Shown here one piece after another: positions 14,559-20,740 of a DNA stretch of 64,000 bases. Source of the stretch: Antarctobacter heliothermus (lineage in GTDB: Bacteria > Pseudomonadota > Alphaproteobacteria > Rhodobacterales > Rhodobacteraceae); the NCBI RefSeq assembly GCF_002237555.1, contig NZ_CP022540.1, forward strand, positions 310,001 to 374,000. Direction: 5' to 3'. The position numbers were made by a program, and so were the translations under genes. The notes under the pieces were generated by a model that searched no databases, had not been told where the DNA came from, and saw nothing but the letters and a program-made list of their open reading frames with translations. Numbering within the stretch: position 1 is the first letter of the stretch; each line of letters opens with the position of its first letter.

Positions 14559-14713
14559 GTCTGACTGGACCAAACAACGATTCATGTACGACAAACGCCG
14601 GATTTTCCCTGACTTTTCCGAAGGTCGGGTTTTCCTTCGTTGACGTGACGCCCCCTTCTGACGGAACATGAAGGCAACTTGTTAGCGTCAATTTTATCCA
14701 AAGGGGTCTGGCT

Positions 14714-16615
14714 GTGCGTACGTCGGCAATTCTGGCATCACTGATCGCCTCATTGGGGCTGTCGACCGTCGCGTCGACCCCGGCGCGGGCGCAGGACTTT
14801 GTCGGGTTCGACCGTACCAGCTTTGGCAGTGTCGTCCTCAGCCGCAACCAGTCCGCCGCTGGCGGCAGCGACATCACCCTTGAACTGGCGGTTGGCGACT
14901 ACAACAACGAACCGATCCTGAACTATTCGGAAAACAGCGTGTTTTCCAAGCTGGGACTGGCAGTGGGTCGGTTGGACATCCTGACCGACACCGGCGTCTA
15001 TCCCTGCACCGCCTTTATCGTCGACAAGAAACACATCCTGACCAACAACCACTGCGTACCCGGCATTCTGGAAAATGAACGCGCAGGCGCGACCCGTATC
15101 GATTCCGTGTTGTTTGTGGCGGGCTACCGCCAGCCCGGCGTAGATCAGGGAACCCGCCGGTTCACAGTTGTGCCGACGCCGGTCGAGACCTCCAAGGAAC
15201 TGGATTATTCGGTGCTGGAGGTGATCGGCGATCCCTCGGCCGAATTCGGGATGCTTGATCTGGCCGCAATCACGCCGCAAGACAATGACCCCTACTGGGT
15301 GATCGGCCACCCGATGGGTGAGGCGCAGCGCATCAGCCGCGAAAAGTGCCGTGCCAATGCACCTGCCCTGTCAAACAAGCAGTTGCTGCACACCTGCGAT
15401 ACGCTGCCCGGCAACTCCGGCTCACCGGTGATTGACGCCTCCTTGCAAAAGGTGGTGGGCCTGCACCATGCCGGGTCCAACCGCGACGCGGTGAACTATG
15501 CCATTCCGATGGGGGACATTCTGGCCCAATCCAAGGTGCTCAAAGCCGCCTTTGTGCCCGGCGCCGTTGACCCGACTCCGCCAACCACCCCACCTGTGCC
15601 CGAGCCTATCGACACCGGCGAAACCGCGCCGCCGCCGGACGCCAAGGACGAAACCGCGCTCAAGCTGTGCGACGCACTCTATGACGAGGCCAAGGCGTTT
15701 TCCGAATGTTTCGCCTATGAAGCCTATCTTCAGGTCTGCGGCGACCACCCCTATGCGATCCTTGCCAAGTCCTATGTGGCGCGTTTGTGCACCACGCCCG
15801 ACCCGGTCGAGGTGACACCGCCGCCCCCGGCCCCGCCCGAAGAGGTTGTCGACACGACGCCGCTGTTGTGGTGGTGCAAGTCCAGCGGGCTGAACGCGAC
15901 AGAGCGCACGATCTGCGGCGACCGCTATCTTGCCGGTCTGGATGAGGAAATGGAACGCGCGTACAAATCGCCAGCCCGCGCAGTCTCTTCGACCCAGCAA
16001 TCCGCGTGGCGCACCGGAACCCGTGACCGTTGTGGCGCGAATACCGACTGTATCTCTCGGGTGCTGATCGACCGGATCACCTACCTCAAGACCCCCGAAA
16101 AGGTCGTGACCCCGCCGCCGCCGGTTCAAACGTACACGATGTATGTCACCGGCACTGACCACCTCAACGTCCGCTCCGGTCCGGGCACGCATAACGGCGT
16201 CATCAACCGGATCGATTTCGGAGACAAGGTGACCGTGCTGGGCGAAAACGACGGCTGGAACAATATCCGCCTGTCGAACGGCCAGAACGGCTGGGTCTCG
16301 AACCGCTATCTGGCCTCGAACAAGCCGAAGGAACAGCCTGTCGCCCAATGCACGGCCACGGTGGTGAACCTCAACCGCTATTCCAGCCATACCCGCAACA
16401 ACGGCAGTGGCTTCCTGAACATCCGGTCGCAGGCCAGCACCCGTGGTCGGATCCTCTCCGAAACGTATCTCGGCGACACCGTTCAAGTGCTGAACCAAAG
16501 CGGCAACTGGGCCCAAATCCGATGCCTGTCGGGACAGTGCAAGAACCCGTTCCGGGGCTCTGGCGGCGTGACCGGCTGGGCCTCCAAAAAGTACCTTTCC
16601 ATCCGGTGCCGTTAA
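14714..16615 (+). CDS. Secreted trypsin-like serine protease with LprI-like and two SH3 domains
   Basis: A 633-residue exported protein starting at GTG 14714 (AAGGGG at 14701-14706). The signal peptide ends at ARAQD (about residue 26). Residues about 95-275 are a V8/trypsin-like protease with a complete triad: His113 in LTNNHC, Asp164 in ELDYSVLEV, Ser235 in LPGNSGSPV. Pro-rich linkers follow. A segment around residues 395-455 (ATERTICGDRYLAGLDEEME, RDRCG) resembles the LprI/DUF1311 lysozyme-inhibitor fold. Two bacterial SH3 domains end the protein (LNVRSGPGTHNGVINRI; FLNIRSQASTRGRILSETYL). It heads a three-gene run with a di-haem DUF4384 protein and an OmpA protein. The substrate is unknown. 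Confidence 0.82.
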   Translation: MRTSAILASLIASLGLSTVASTPARAQDFVGFDRTSFGSVVLSRNQSAAGGSDITLELAVGDYNNEPILNYSENSVFSKLGLAVGRLDILTDTGVYPCTAFIVDKKHILTNNHCVPGILENERAGATRIDSVLFVAGYRQPGVDQGTRRFTVVPTPVETSKELDYSVLEVIGDPSAEFGMLDLAAITPQDNDPYWVIGHPMGEAQRISREKCRANAPALSNKQLLHTCDTLPGNSGSPVIDASLQKVVGLHHAGSNRDAVNYAIPMGDILAQSKVLKAAFVPGAVDPTPPTTPPVPEPIDTGETAPPPDAKDETALKLCDALYDEAKAFSECFAYEAYLQVCGDHPYAILAKSYVARLCTTPDPVEVTPPPPAPPEEVVDTTPLLWWCKSSGLNATERTICGDRYLAGLDEEMERAYKSPARAVSSTQQSAWRTGTRDRCGANTDCISRVLIDRITYLKTPEKVVTPPPPVQTYTMYVTGTDHLNVRSGPGTHNGVINRIDFGDKVTVLGENDGWNNIRLSNGQNGWVSNRYLASNKPKEQPVAQCTATVVNLNRYSSHTRNNGSGFLNIRSQASTRGRILSETYLGDTVQVLNQSGNWAQIRCLSGQCKNPFRGSGGVTGWASKKYLSIRCR

Positions 16616-16658
16616 TCAGAATTCCACCCAAGCCCTCTTTCAACAGGAGACTTATGTC

Positions 16659-19313
16659 ATGCAACCCAACAACCTGATGAAGGTGAGCGTCATCGCCCTG
16701 GCGACCGCCTTCGCCCTGCCCGCTGTGGCGCAGGATCAGACCTTGCTGGTTGATCCAGAAGATCTGAATTATGAGCTGCCAGCCGACGCAACCGATTATG
16801 AAAAATCCGCTTATGGTGTCTTGCAGAAGTATTGCTCTGACTGCCACCAGGAAGGTGTGCTTGGCGATGGACTGACCAAACCCAAGGCCGGTTTTGGTCA
16901 CGTTCTGGACATGCGTCGCCTGGCGAATGACCCCAAGTTCGTCGCGGTCGGCGATCCGGAAAAGTCCAAACTTTATCAGGTGATCACCGGCGGCGCGCCT
17001 GCCATGCCGGACAACTGCTGGGATCCCAGCTGTGTGCCGACCGAGGCAGAGCTGCAACAGCTTCAGGACTGGATCATCGCACTGGGCGACACCGCACCAG
17101 AACCGCGGACCTACATCTCGCTGGCTGATATGTACGCCATGGCCCATGCCGATTTGCAGGCCCAGCCCACCAACCGCCGCGACCGCATCCGCTATATCTC
17201 GATGCGGCCAATGTGGAACGACCCGGACGTGTCGGACGAAAACTACCAAGGTTACTTGGCGGCGACCGTCAAGCTGATGAATGCCCTCAGCTGGAACGCA
17301 AATGTCTACAAGTTCGAAAAGGTCGACGAGCACGGCATCCTGCTGCGTGTCTTCCTGCCCGAACTGGATTGGACCCATGAAACATGGGGGTATCTCGAAG
17401 CACAATATCCCTACGCCATGGAAAGCGACACCGACCCCTATCTTGGCTCACTGCAACACTTGTCAGGCTCCATGACCCCCGTCATTCGGGCCGACTGGTT
17501 CACCGCGACCGCCTCTGTCAGCCCGCTTTACTACGACATGCTGGGTCTGCCTGACACGATTCAGGGACTAGAGGCCAAGCTGGGCATGAGCATGAGCAGC
17601 AACATCCTGAACGAACAGGTCGTCCGCGCCGGCTTTCAGGATTCGGGCGTGTCCTCGCATAACCGTCTGATCGAACGCCACCCTCTGGGAACCGGCTTTT
17701 TCTGGACCTCTTATGACTTTGCCGGATCGAAAGGGCGTCAGAGCTTTTTCGAATACCCGCTGGGTCCGATCGACGCCTACGGCCCCGATCTTGCTTTTGA
17801 GCACGATGGCGGCGAGTCGATCTTTACCCTGCCCAACGGCTTTCACGCCTACTACCTCAACACTGCCGACGGCGCGCGTCTTGACGTGGGTCCGACCTCC
17901 ATCGTGCGTGACACCGACTATCCGGACGGTACGGGTGAGGTTGTGAATGGGATCTCGTGCATCTCGTGCCACTCCAAAGGCATGCGCTTCAACGATGACT
18001 CTGTGCGTGAGGTTGCGCTGAACAACCTGTCGCTGCCCGCCTCGGCGCGTCAGACCATCGACGCGATCTATCCGGGCAAGGACGTCATTAATGAATACTT
18101 CCAGCGTGATTCCGACGCCTTCTTGAACACCCTCGCCAGCGCAGGGATCGAGCCGTCCATCAAAGCCGCCGGGTTGGAGCCGGTGCGGGGTCTGTTCGTC
18201 TATCACGTCGATTACTTCGTTGACTTCAATCAGGCCGCCAATGAACTGGGTCTGACGGCAGAGCAACTGCGCAGCCGGATGGCCTTTGCCGGTCATGACA
18301 TGGCTGGCCTGTTGACCCGTCTGGATATCTCGCCGATTGCGCGGGATGAATGGACCGCCGCCTATCCTGTCCTGCTGGACAAGCTGACCGACTACCGTCC
18401 GTACAAGACGGACCATGTGGTGACTGCGGACCTGAGCTATTCGGTCAAGCAGATCGTCAAGGACACCGATTACGCCCCGGTGAAAAAGGTCAAAGTGGTC
18501 AAGCCTGTCGAATACAAGCCTGGCGATCCCGGTTACGTTCCGCCCGCCGCCGACTACAAGCCTGGCGATCCCGGCTATGTGCCGCCCGCTGCAGACCACA
18601 AGCCCGGCGACCCCGGTTACGTTCCGCCCGCCGCCGACTACAAGCCCGGCGACCCCGGCTATGTGCCGCCCGCCAATGACTATGTGGTGAAGGACGACAA
18701 CTACAAGCCGACCGGCACGGACTACGTCGTGAAAGGTGACGAGCCGATCAAGACCCACAACGACGCCAAGAAATACGGCGGCGACTATGACCCGGTCCAG
18801 CACTCGGTCGCGGCACAAAGCCACCTGACGGTCTACACCAACCAGACCACCTACAAGGTCGGTGACGAACTGCAGGTCTTTATCGAACCGCGCCACGACT
18901 GCCGTCTGACGCTGATCTCAATCGACGACGATCACGATAGCTGCGTTCTCTACCCCTTCCCGGGTCTGGATGACATCGTTATCCCGGGTGGCACCCAGTA
19001 TGTCTTCCCGCCGAAGGGCGCGCTGCGCACCTCCGAGCCGGGGCTGGAAACCATCCTAGCGATCTGCAACGGCGGTCAGGCTGCCATCGACAAGGTGACC
19101 CGCGACACGTCCAAGGTGTCCTGCTCGGTCGGCCACAAGGCCGTTTCCAAGGACCACTATGAGGGTATCGTGAACGAAACCTTGGTGCTTGACCTCAACG
19201 CCGGGGCCAAGGACGCCAAGAAATCGGACAGCGGCGTCGATTACCGCGCCGTGTCCAAACACAACCCCGACGTGACCAAGGCCCAGATCTCGGTCGTGGT
19301 CCGGGAATACTAA
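16659..19313 (+). CDS. Exported di-haem c-type protein with tandem repeats and DUF4384-like domain
   Basis: An 884-residue exported protein (signal ends near PAVAQ, residue 25). It holds two c-type haem motifs: YCSDCHQ (Cys59, Cys62, His63), in a planctomycete-type cytochrome domain ending about residue 142 with GGAPAMP as a possible Met ligand, and ISCISCHSKG (Cys434, Cys437, His438). Residues about 619-674 are four copies of a 14-residue repeat, YKPGDPGYVPPAAD. The C-terminal part (YTNQTTYKVGDELQVF, DSCVLYPFPGLDD) resembles DUF4384. The start has AGGAGA at 16645-16650. It may be a redox or sensory envelope protein. No described protein with this order is known to me. Confidence 0.75.
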   Translation: MQPNNLMKVSVIALATAFALPAVAQDQTLLVDPEDLNYELPADATDYEKSAYGVLQKYCSDCHQEGVLGDGLTKPKAGFGHVLDMRRLANDPKFVAVGDPEKSKLYQVITGGAPAMPDNCWDPSCVPTEAELQQLQDWIIALGDTAPEPRTYISLADMYAMAHADLQAQPTNRRDRIRYISMRPMWNDPDVSDENYQGYLAATVKLMNALSWNANVYKFEKVDEHGILLRVFLPELDWTHETWGYLEAQYPYAMESDTDPYLGSLQHLSGSMTPVIRADWFTATASVSPLYYDMLGLPDTIQGLEAKLGMSMSSNILNEQVVRAGFQDSGVSSHNRLIERHPLGTGFFWTSYDFAGSKGRQSFFEYPLGPIDAYGPDLAFEHDGGESIFTLPNGFHAYYLNTADGARLDVGPTSIVRDTDYPDGTGEVVNGISCISCHSKGMRFNDDSVREVALNNLSLPASARQTIDAIYPGKDVINEYFQRDSDAFLNTLASAGIEPSIKAAGLEPVRGLFVYHVDYFVDFNQAANELGLTAEQLRSRMAFAGHDMAGLLTRLDISPIARDEWTAAYPVLLDKLTDYRPYKTDHVVTADLSYSVKQIVKDTDYAPVKKVKVVKPVEYKPGDPGYVPPAADYKPGDPGYVPPAADHKPGDPGYVPPAADYKPGDPGYVPPANDYVVKDDNYKPTGTDYVVKGDEPIKTHNDAKKYGGDYDPVQHSVAAQSHLTVYTNQTTYKVGDELQVFIEPRHDCRLTLISIDDDHDSCVLYPFPGLDDIVIPGGTQYVFPPKGALRTSEPGLETILAICNGGQAAIDKVTRDTSKVSCSVGHKAVSKDHYEGIVNETLVLDLNAGAKDAKKSDSGVDYRAVSKHNPDVTKAQISVVVREY
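18513..18680 (+). repeat. Four tandem 42-bp coding repeats
   Basis: Four in-frame 42-bp units start at 18513, 18555, 18597 and 18639 and encode YKPGDPGYVPPAAD with only His-for-Tyr and Asn-for-Ala changes. Units 1 and 3, and 2 and 4, share silent differences (GGTTACGTT versus GGCTATGTG). This suggests duplication of an 84-bp pair, so copy number may vary between strains. Confidence 0.9.
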
Positions 19314-19326
19314 GGAGATGAGAGCG

Positions 19327-20055
19327 ATGCGAAAGCTATTCCTGAGCGTCGCTCTCTGCCTTGGCCTGCCCCCCGTGGCAGGCCATGCGCAGAGCGGCGA
19401 AATCTTTATCCCCGGCAACGATCCGCTGGTGGAAATCAAACCGCAGCCGCAGAGCCAGATGGCCAACTGCCTGCTCAACCCCAACGCCGCCAACTGCGCT
19501 GGCGTCGACATCGACCCGGGCGGTATCGCGCTGGAAAGCGCCGGACCTTCGGTTACCTTTGAAACCCTTGTGCTGGATCTCGACAACAAGAAGGTCGTTG
19601 TCAGCAAGGCACCCCCGCCAGAGCCGCCAAGATACGACGCGCCGGAACCGCCCAAGACAGGCAAGGTCGCGCTGCCCTCCGTCGCCGTCACGATCGAGTT
19701 TGATTATGACAGCGACCGGGTGCGGGGCGACCAGCGCGGCAAGATCGACAGCCTGATTGCCGCTTTGAACGATCCTGCCCTTCAAGGCACCTCTTACGCT
19801 GTGATCGGCCACACCGACGCTGTCGGATCGGACGGCTACAACTGCGATCTCAGCCTGCGCCGCGCCGCCTCTGTCACGCGCCTGATCGAAGGGGCCTACC
19901 TTAGTGTGCCGCTCTATCCGGTCGGCTGGGGAGAGTATGTGCTCAAGAACGAATACGATCCCCGCGCGGCTGAAAACCGCCGTGTGACGTTCCTGCGACT
20001 GCCCGATACGCCGGGTGCCGTCTTGCAAACCGCCAGTACGCTCTGCCGGTACTGA
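19327..20055 (+). CDS. OmpA-family peptidoglycan-binding envelope protein
   Basis: A 242-residue protein with a signal peptide (MRKLFLSVALCLGLPPVAGHA). An unassigned Pro-rich middle is followed by a C-terminal OmpA-like domain from about residue 120: VTIEFDYDSDRV, YAVIGHTDAVGSDGYNCDLS, LRRAASVTRLIEG, and AENRRVTFLR. This domain normally anchors an outer-membrane or lipid-linked protein to peptidoglycan. ATG 19327 is preferred to ATG 19318 because AAGGAG at 19312-19317 then has proper spacing. It follows the di-haem protein by 13 nt and ends with a terminator, closing the three-gene unit. Confidence 0.85.
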   Translation: MRKLFLSVALCLGLPPVAGHAQSGEIFIPGNDPLVEIKPQPQSQMANCLLNPNAANCAGVDIDPGGIALESAGPSVTFETLVLDLDNKKVVVSKAPPPEPPRYDAPEPPKTGKVALPSVAVTIEFDYDSDRVRGDQRGKIDSLIAALNDPALQGTSYAVIGHTDAVGSDGYNCDLSLRRAASVTRLIEGAYLSVPLYPVGWGEYVLKNEYDPRAAENRRVTFLRLPDTPGAVLQTASTLCRY

Positions 20056-20079
20056 GATACGCATATTTGCAGCGTAATT

Positions 20080-20110
20080 GACCCTCGCCCATCCCGGGCG
20101 GGGGTCTTTT
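20080..20110 (+). terminator. Rho-independent terminator after the OmpA gene
   Basis: Arms GACCCTCGCCC (20080-20090) and GGGCGGGGGTC (20096-20106) pair over 11 positions with one T-G wobble, with a 5-nt loop, followed by TTTT at 20107-20110. It lies 25 bp past the stop of the OmpA gene and marks the end of the three-gene envelope cassette. Confidence 0.9.
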
Positions 20111-20269: not shown

Positions 20270-20740
20270 ATGGATGTCGACGACGACGTGGTGCCGCATT
20301 CGGTTGTGCCGCTCAACAGATTTCTCACTTACCGCCTTGCCAAGGTGCAGGCCAAACTCAGCGCTCAGGCCACGCGCATCTTGCGTGCCCATGCCGGGAT
20401 CACGATCACACAATGGCGCATCATCGCCGTGCTTGGCGATACCGGGCGCTGCACGTCCGCCCAACTGTCGCGGTTGACCGAAATGGACAAGGGCCTGATC
20501 AGCCGCAGCGTCAAGACCTTGACCGCCGAGAGGATGATCACCGTCACCCGCGACGCCTCAGACAACCGCGCGCTGCATCTGGACCTGACCGCCAAGGGGC
20601 GTGAAACCTTTGAACGCACCATTCCGCGCATGCGCTCGCGACAGATGGGATTGCGGGCCTATCTAGACGAAGCCGAATTTGACACGTTGATGCGGGCCTG
20701 CGAAAAGCTGGAAAAGGCGGCGGAAGATCCTGAAATCTAG
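20270..20740 (+). CDS. MarR-family transcriptional regulator
   Basis: A 156-residue winged-helix protein. The recognition region is TITQWRIIAVLGDTGRCTSA, then QLSRLTEMDKGLISRSVKTL, and the wing is MITVTRDASDNRALHLDLTA. These are MarR hallmarks; dimers usually repress nearby genes and respond to small aromatic or oxidising ligands. ATG 20270 follows AGGGAA at 20253-20258. The next gene in the same direction is an FkbM methyltransferase 74 nt away, but a regulatory link is not shown. Confidence 0.88.
   Translation: MDVDDDVVPHSVVPLNRFLTYRLAKVQAKLSAQATRILRAHAGITITQWRIIAVLGDTGRCTSAQLSRLTEMDKGLISRSVKTLTAERMITVTRDASDNRALHLDLTAKGRETFERTIPRMRSRQMGLRAYLDEAEFDTLMRACEKLEKAAEDPEI

Follow-up and report, generated by a model that had tools for sequence, protein, structure and literature searches.

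Do a protease gene, a haem protein gene and an OmpA-type gene that follow one another in the genome of Antarctobacter heliothermus belong together, and what could the haem protein have to do with the protease? The question is raised by a 64,000-nucleotide stretch of this genome (contig NZ_CP022540.1, positions 310,001 to 374,000; referred to as the window), in which three open reading frames (ORFs) lie on the plus strand across 14714-20055, with gaps of 43 nt and 4 or 13 nt between them. They encode, in this order, a protease (gene 1), a protein with two CxxCH haem sites, which we call the core (gene 2), and an OmpA-domain protein (gene 3). The N-termini of all three resemble Sec signal peptides, as judged by eye without a predictor, and the third gene is followed at 20080-20106 by a hairpin (-27.6 kcal/mol, z -5.4) and TTTT; the terminator pattern scan, which demands more T, did not list this hairpin. 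The original prediction, made from the sequence of the window, of three consecutive exported-type genes with a terminator was borne out. Comparison with other genomes revealed that these genes are linked, and that the fold of the protease linked to the core differs from one group of loci to another.

Conservation of the gene trio

The protease, core and OmpA genes were adjacent and on one strand in 21/24 loci with a trypsin-type protease (window included). In the first of the three exceptions, L040, an amidase gene (Amidase_2, 8.8e-11) lies between the trypsin and core genes, in the second, L048, the order is core-OmpA-trypsin, and in the third, L049, the trypsin gene is on the opposite strand, converging. 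As to whether the genes occur independently of one another, which would have spoken against a unit, a trypsin gene and an OmpA gene were found near the core in all 24 loci of the window's clade, and elsewhere the core has another protease or none. The upstream flank was less constant: a same-strand gene for an ATP-binding cassette (ABC) transporter of about 242 amino acids was missing within two genes upstream of trypsin at 9/23 readable loci, two of which carry a homologue on the other strand. The amino-acid ABC transporter was therefore dropped as a candidate part of the unit. That adjacency is kept in 21/24 loci while this flank varies supports the conclusion that the three genes form a unit.

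Several loci of this kind had features of their own. L045 contains two trypsins, one of them with a different tail (WD40-like by eye). The same trio with the same flanks is present in roseobacter-like DNA of a record named Enemella evansiae, an actinomycete by its label (L033, JAFKDC010000008.1; Actinomycetota), which is probably mislabelled or contaminated. In L149 (genome G844), trypsin and an FGE-sulfatase domain (1.5e-51) are on one chain, and the genes of an OmpA protein and of a DUF4384 protein that lacks CxxCH lie near it. Downstream of gene 3 in the window, 20270-20740 holds an ORF for a MarR-like regulator (by eye), and in many close relatives a gene of about 156 amino acids from the same cluster comes after gene 3.

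These counts rest on several surveys. The core was present in 10/101 genomes of a first survey (its own included), and 33 loci came from scanning named genome contigs; once duplicates had been removed, there were 24 loci with a trypsin partner. Because even sampling of the class and the phylum gave few cores (2/385 and 4/398 genomes, own included, with scoring limited to two first-look candidates in each genome), we centred the survey on the order of an Afipia genome, in which 44/297 genomes matched at E<=1e-20, partial matches included; the matching genomes listed for the order of G802 were also among these 44. From 36 of the 44, 38 loci with a core match under 1e-90 were read (L110-L147). 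G801 and G802 were read via L054 and L058, G806 (L071), G844 (L149) and G1018 (L148) were kept apart, and the short partial matches of G960, G1030 and G1092 were not read. L018-L025 and L070, which come from the same genomes as other loci, were dropped before counting, and L071, L148 and L149, with core matches weaker than 1e-90, were dropped from the tree and label counts; L001-L017, L060-L069 and L072-L109 are either short fragments of loci covered under another number or loci whose context was left unread. Genes were called by our own codon-usage script, with which missed or mis-started genes are possible.

Probable exchange of the protease beside the core

Among the 73 core rows compared, which come from across the Alphaproteobacteria, the protease near the core was a trypsin (S1) in 24, a subtilisin (S8) in 9 and a caspase homologue (C14) in 16, and 24 rows had no protease within 4 genes. 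In a maximum-likelihood tree of the 73 core middle domains, the trypsin rows formed one clade and the subtilisin rows another, each at 100/100. The subtilisin clade was nested among caspase-type rows, which stood in several places, and the tree needed nine label changes for caspase and seven for none. As the trypsin- and subtilisin-linked cores form clades and the caspase-linked ones are scattered, the protease partner was probably exchanged around a constant core. We infer that the caspase came first, on a tree with weak support at some deep forks and with several long branches.

In nine Afipia loci, the genes for an extracytoplasmic function (ECF) sigma factor, a possible anti-sigma factor, subtilisin, OmpA (called in 7/9, and left uncalled by the script at two) and the core run in one direction. 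In one of them, L054, the domain matches were Sigma70_r4_2 4.3e-15 and Peptidase_S8 9e-47, and that of the possible anti-sigma factor, zf-HC2 0.016, was below the cut-off. The caspases beside the core matched Peptidase_C14 at 6.5e-14 (L058) and 2.6e-12 (G060, L026), and they end in DUF4384, with a score above the cut-off in L058 (4.7e-9) and below it in L026/G060 (1.6e-4). In the order-wide survey, a caspase was found within 4 genes of the core at 14/38 loci, including three looser cases (L133, L137 and L146) in which it is 3-4 genes away, one of them on the other strand. Given the 279 C14 genes of these 36 genomes, the expected number of caspase genes within 5 kb of the 38 cores is 0.78, if they were evenly spread and the loci independent, which the loci are not; degenerate C14 copies were partly missed, and the genome-wide count also missed the caspase adjoining the core of G802, which Pfam scores.

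The clustering was also seen within single genomes. All seven caspases detected in G060, which belongs to the window's own family, are encoded no more than 15 kb from the core, against 0.05 expected, as are 4/4 in G1001; in 12 caspase-type genomes, picked for a nearby caspase, 28/127 caspases were near the core (expected 0.74). The G060 locus is an array on one strand, made up of a flavoprotein gene, the core, OmpA and four consecutive caspases. The tails of the G060 caspases scanned carry LprI (9.4e-11, two stretches), SH3_3 (6.1e-16, two stretches), PG_binding_1 with a C-type lectin (two proteins) or NADase_transloc (9e-34); SH3 tails and, going by resemblance, LprI-like tails are common to some of these caspases and to the trypsin of the window. 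Directly upstream of the core in L110, L112, L114, L116 and L119 we found caspase pairs in which, by motif pattern, one member has an intact His-Cys dyad and the other is degenerate. By the same patterns both caspases are intact in L120, L121 and L126, and that of L123 is degenerate.

Caspases were also seen away from such arrangements. In the window's own genome (L152 3434-7456, at about 745-749 kb), an OmpA gene (profile 2e-39) adjoins the gene of a 1125-amino-acid caspase-domain protein, with no haem core called within the 14 kb read. Tandem caspase pairs occur in genomes that carry the label none in the tree, on other contigs (G841:C170, G842:C148) or 5-8 kb from the core (G917:C155).

The three proteins and the haem-related neighbours

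The features of the window are listed in Table 1. Gene 2 encodes 884 amino acids, and the two CxxCH sites, the Pro/Gly repeat and the DUF4384 domain foreseen for it were all present. Its N-terminal domain scored barely above the cut-off as Cytochrome_CBB3 (PF13442, 5e-6, 27.2 bits vs. 27). M116 is invariant in alignment A1, and its column falls out of register in a larger alignment. With a profile match above the gathering score, a CxxCH motif and a Met candidate, gene 2 would be placed among proteins of the class I cytochrome c type. In the four main groups, which comprise 60 cores, site 1 was conserved in 58 and site 2 in all 60; the two cores lacking site 1 are alignment gaps at that place, one from a cut contig and one from a short gene call. 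A search for the di-haem peroxidase family CCP/MauG (PF03150) gave 13.4 bits vs. a cut-off of 25.6, and this identity for gene 2 was rejected.

Table 1. Features of the locus (positions within the window; pLDDT, predicted local distance difference test; pTM, predicted template modelling score)
Feature	Position	Strand	Basis
Terminator-like hairpin upstream of gene 1, in the gap that separates it from the ABC transporter gene	14608..14629	+	pattern scan; such sites not above chance
Gene 1, trypsin-like serine protease, apparently exported; Pro-rich linkers, a Cys-rich and an LprI-like segment, two SH3 domains	14714..16615	+	ORF, Pfam
Putative signal peptide of gene 1, with ARA at its end	14714..14791	+	by eye
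Trypsin_2 domain	15005..15463	+	Pfam 5.2e-17
Catalytic H113, D164, S235	15050-15052, 15203-15205, 15416-15418	+	alignment A2
LprI-like segment between protease and SH3, limits by eye	15863..16087	+	by eye; PF07007 0.003 at best in 2/16 members of A2
First SH3_3 domain	16160..16312	+	Pfam
Second SH3-like domain, limits by eye	16409..16603	+	Pfam, two stretches
Gene 2, core: two CxxCH haem sites, middle domain, repeat linker, DUF4384	16659..19313	+	ORF, Pfam, alignments
Haem site 1 in the cytochrome c domain, CSDCH, residues 59-63	16833..16847	+	Pfam, alignments
Candidate distal ligand M116	17004-17006	+	alignment A1
Middle domain, residues 150-605	17106..18473	+	predicted structure, pLDDT 88, pTM 0.90
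Haem site 2, CISCH, residues 434-438, inside P460/c'-beta-like part	17958..17972	+	alignment, structure match, profile alignment
42-bp repeat x4 (KPGDPGYVPPAADY), Pro/Gly, variable linker	18509..18674	+	repeat analysis
DUF4384 (PF14326), Ig/macroglobulin-like fold	18849..19067	+	Pfam 8.3e-8, structure search
Gene 3, apparently exported protein with C-terminal peptidoglycan-binding-type OmpA domain; alternative start 19318	19327..20055	+	ORF, Pfam
OmpA domain of gene 3 (PF00691)	19699..19962	+	Pfam 3.1e-10
Terminator hairpin 3' of gene 3, followed by TTTT	20080..20106	+	folding energy

The middle domain was modelled alone, because the VIA rows of the whole model spanned residues 712-884, that is, the DUF4384 part; Foldseek, queried with the full-length gene 2 model, found nothing below 0.001. 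In the structure search with the middle-domain model, VIA ranks 1-7, 9 and 10 were beta-sheet cytochromes c'/P460. No other fold family was prominent in these match lists, which barely test the domain outside model residues 144-343. When the core was aligned by HHalign with a P460 profile, the CxxCH motifs stood in register at P 0.0004, with a probability of only 14%; the controls, taken from elsewhere in the core and from four further families, gave P = 0.017-0.87. The P460 set comprised 26 cytochrome P460 matches, of which 16 were tried and 14 used, two giving no CxxCH frame. Pfam found no P460 match in the nine segments scanned. The second haem domain, as modelled, thus weakly resembles the gas-binding cytochromes P460/c'-beta, whose characteristic fold is a five-stranded antiparallel beta-sheet. 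Among solved structures, the search with gene 2 returned RNA polymerase II tail repeats only, a low-complexity Pro/Gly match that was discarded, profile search A3 listed only GGA1 (0.12) and cytochrome FoxE (0.32), which were not used, and the search with the middle domain alone gave no matches. Among the cores read, the 42-bp unit of the linker was found only in that of the window (four copies) and in one Antarctobacter heliothermus core (three copies). The DUF4384 domain scored 32.6 bits vs. a cut-off of 27.

Gene 1 has a GTG start and encodes 633 amino acids. H113, D164 and S235 are invariant across the 16/16 sequences of alignment A2, and with this intact H-D-S triad in its Trypsin_2 domain the protein falls into the trypsin-like serine proteases (PF13365). 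The protease and the two SH3 domains (SH3_3, 5.6e-27, two Pfam stretches) of the predicted make-up stood. Its lysozyme-inhibitor-like part was less firm, as the LprI profile (PF07007) reached 0.003 at best, in 2/16 members of A2, and gave no match at E<=1 in gene 1 itself; the Cys/Trp pattern favours the label by eye, and we regard it as the weak point in the description of gene 1. Pfam found no Peptidase_C14/orthocaspase domain in any of the three window proteins. Since Trypsin_2 genes are common in such genomes (16 matches in that of the window), a lone trypsin neighbour in one genome would mean little, and the claim of linkage rests on conservation. The same genome has two more tandem trypsin pairs (L150 5978-10206, at about 2.14 Mb, and L151 7222-13320, at about 3.41 Mb), with N-terminal regions similar to that of gene 1 and different tails: three of the four have Sel1 repeats, PG_binding just under the cut-off or a beta-helix, and the fourth is without a Pfam tail. 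Gene 3 proved OmpA-like, as foreseen (40.7 bits vs. a cut-off of 27.2). Its start is more likely at 19327 (242 amino acids) than at 19318 (245 amino acids), because AGGAG ends 9 nt before the second ATG.

Haem-related genes recur around the core. A cytochrome c' gene was found within 4 genes at 13/76 loci (11 on the same strand and 2 on the other) and a di-haem cytochrome gene nearby at 11/76; in L110 the respective Pfam matches were 1.9e-31 (PF01322) and 3.8e-15. Both are directly upstream of the core in L049, which has a trypsin partner, so these neighbours are not tied to one protease. Six cores, each with four CxxCH motifs, have a ferric-reductase-like flavoprotein gene directly upstream (PF01794, 1.7e-11 in L126). 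Cytochromes c' are described as putative binding proteins of nitric oxide (NO) in the abstract of one paper (PMC10318465), and the neighbour genes, judged by their families, point to reactive small molecules.

Variant cores were also encountered. The cores of L127-L132 and L136 carry four CxxCH motifs (three as called in L136) and lack a protease within 4 genes; 6/7 of these loci hold a divergent OmpA gene, L129 being at a contig start. L140 and L141 hold core relatives without either CxxCH, still adjoined by a di-haem cytochrome gene.

A possible haem-to-protease module and its alternatives

The trio may be a version of an alphaproteobacterial periplasmic module consisting of a haem-c core, an OmpA-type protein and an exchangeable protease. 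The OmpA partner and the SH3/LprI-like tail of the protease would hold the module at peptidoglycan. The core would gain or lose electrons via its first, cytochrome c haem, and a reactive ligand would bind the second, P460/c'-beta-like haem, with NO as the first candidate, followed by peroxide or hydroxylamine. The change induced by the ligand might then be passed to the protease, perhaps through the immunoglobulin (Ig)-like DUF4384, so that the state of the core would set protease activity or release. As the protease is exchanged while the core stays, the core would supply a constant input, and the protease would be an output that can be replaced. We give an even chance to this explanation, in which a wall-tethered haem core with a sensing or handling role for a reactive small molecule controls its partner protease. 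From the genomic evidence we infer haem attachment, ligand, contacts between the proteins, gating of activity and substrates alike. The original prediction of a unit coupling redox sensing to proteolysis is strengthened by the protease exchange and the cytochrome neighbours, and its haem binding and protease activity stay at the level of prediction. Outside the window's clade the core occurs with a caspase, a subtilisin or no protease within 4 genes, and the last of these applies to about a third of the rows (24/73). Because the core elsewhere has another protease or none, the three-gene set is best seen as one version of a larger theme.

A possible, if doubtful, alternative is that the core is a periplasmic redox enzyme or a detoxifier of reactive nitrogen or oxygen species, and that the protease merely matures it or clears damaged copies. 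The two haem sites and the nearby cytochrome c', di-haem cytochrome and ferric-reductase-like genes would suit such an enzyme, any fold could stand in for a housekeeping processing protease, and the cores without a nearby protease would be no surprise. However, pairs of degenerate and intact caspases, the seven caspases round the G060 core, and tails that bind the wall or targets would be unusual for a maturation protease. The same tails (LprI-like, SH3, PG_binding_1, C-type lectin, NADase_transloc), together with the family of trypsins with varying tails in the window's own genome, would fit an envelope defence, the other reading offered with the original prediction, in which wall-tethered proteases destroy foreign lytic enzymes or incoming proteins, with the haem protein as an accessory or trigger. 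We consider this unlikely, as the PADLOC matches of the three proteins went no further than the domain of the trypsin (best match RT-Protease_XI, 1.6e-10) or that of OmpA (ZorB, 3.1e-6); since single domains alone were covered, they indicate domain likeness and not membership in a defence system. Finally, SH3, LprI-like and OmpA are common envelope modules, and these, with the core rows lacking a protease within 4 genes, could mean that three wall proteins share regulation without a joint function. This seems very unlikely, given that adjacency is kept across genera while the flanks change and that the core is linked to three protease folds.

The haem-controlled protease module has partial counterparts in the literature. 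The nearest published link that we found is to the alphaproteobacterial QC pseudo-orthocaspases (PMC6426788, 2019), described in part of that paper as having trypsin and DUF4384 on one chain. Those proteins and the loci studied here share a trypsin with an intact H-D-S triad and DUF4384 in Alphaproteobacteria, and caspase homologues, intact and degenerate, stand beside relatives of gene 2. In contrast to the window, where trypsin and DUF4384 belong to different proteins and DUF4384 shares its chain with haem domains, the pseudo-orthocaspases carry the caspase p20 domain on the same chain; the accessible portion of PMC6426788 describes no haem protein or OmpA with them, and the word 'cytochrome' is absent from it. 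DUF4384 is also named among cyanobacterial orthocaspase domains in an excerpt of PMC7475262. With the cytochrome P460/c'-beta superfamily (PMC11928373, in part), gene 2 shares c-type haem sites and a weak fold match round its second CxxCH, but the proteins of that superfamily are small, whereas gene 2 is a multi-domain protein, and that paper uses neither the word 'caspase' nor the word 'fused'. Caspase and trypsin peptidases alternate within one system type also in the adaptor/NTPase systems with effector-associated (EAD) or Death-like domains, as outlined in sections of PMC8195603. Those systems are built of EAD/Death-like adaptors and NTPases, unlike the trio, which has signal-peptide-bearing proteins, haem sites and wall-binding domains and in which domain and PADLOC scans found no NTPase domain. 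Our searches of open-access text in PubMed Central, judged by titles and the openings of abstracts, showed no description of a module of haem protein, OmpA and protease. As a composition it appears to be undescribed, and the function that we propose for it is deduced.

In mitochondria, which are traced to Alphaproteobacteria, cytochrome c signals to caspases. The loci described here likewise tie a c-type haem protein genetically to caspase homologues; unlike in mitochondrial signalling, the core is a protein other than mitochondrial cytochrome c, the caspases are apparently exported, and the window has a trypsin, and we do not claim homology of mechanism. That a gas-binding and electron-transferring haem core is a periplasmic switch for an exchangeable protease, that is, an NO- or peroxide-responsive circuit from a cytochrome c type protein to a caspase, in which the caspase (often with a pseudo-caspase twin) is older and trypsin and subtilisin are derived, appears improbable to us.

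If the proposed module is real, haem chemistry in the envelope of Alphaproteobacteria would control a protease attached there, and three unrelated protease folds would fill one slot of that system. DUF4384 would gain a job, and bacterial caspase homologues and their inactive twins would gain a concrete partner and a testable input. Tracking the core, and not the protease, would be a general way to find such modules, and it could then be asked whether the coupling of c-type cytochromes to caspases predates eukaryotes.
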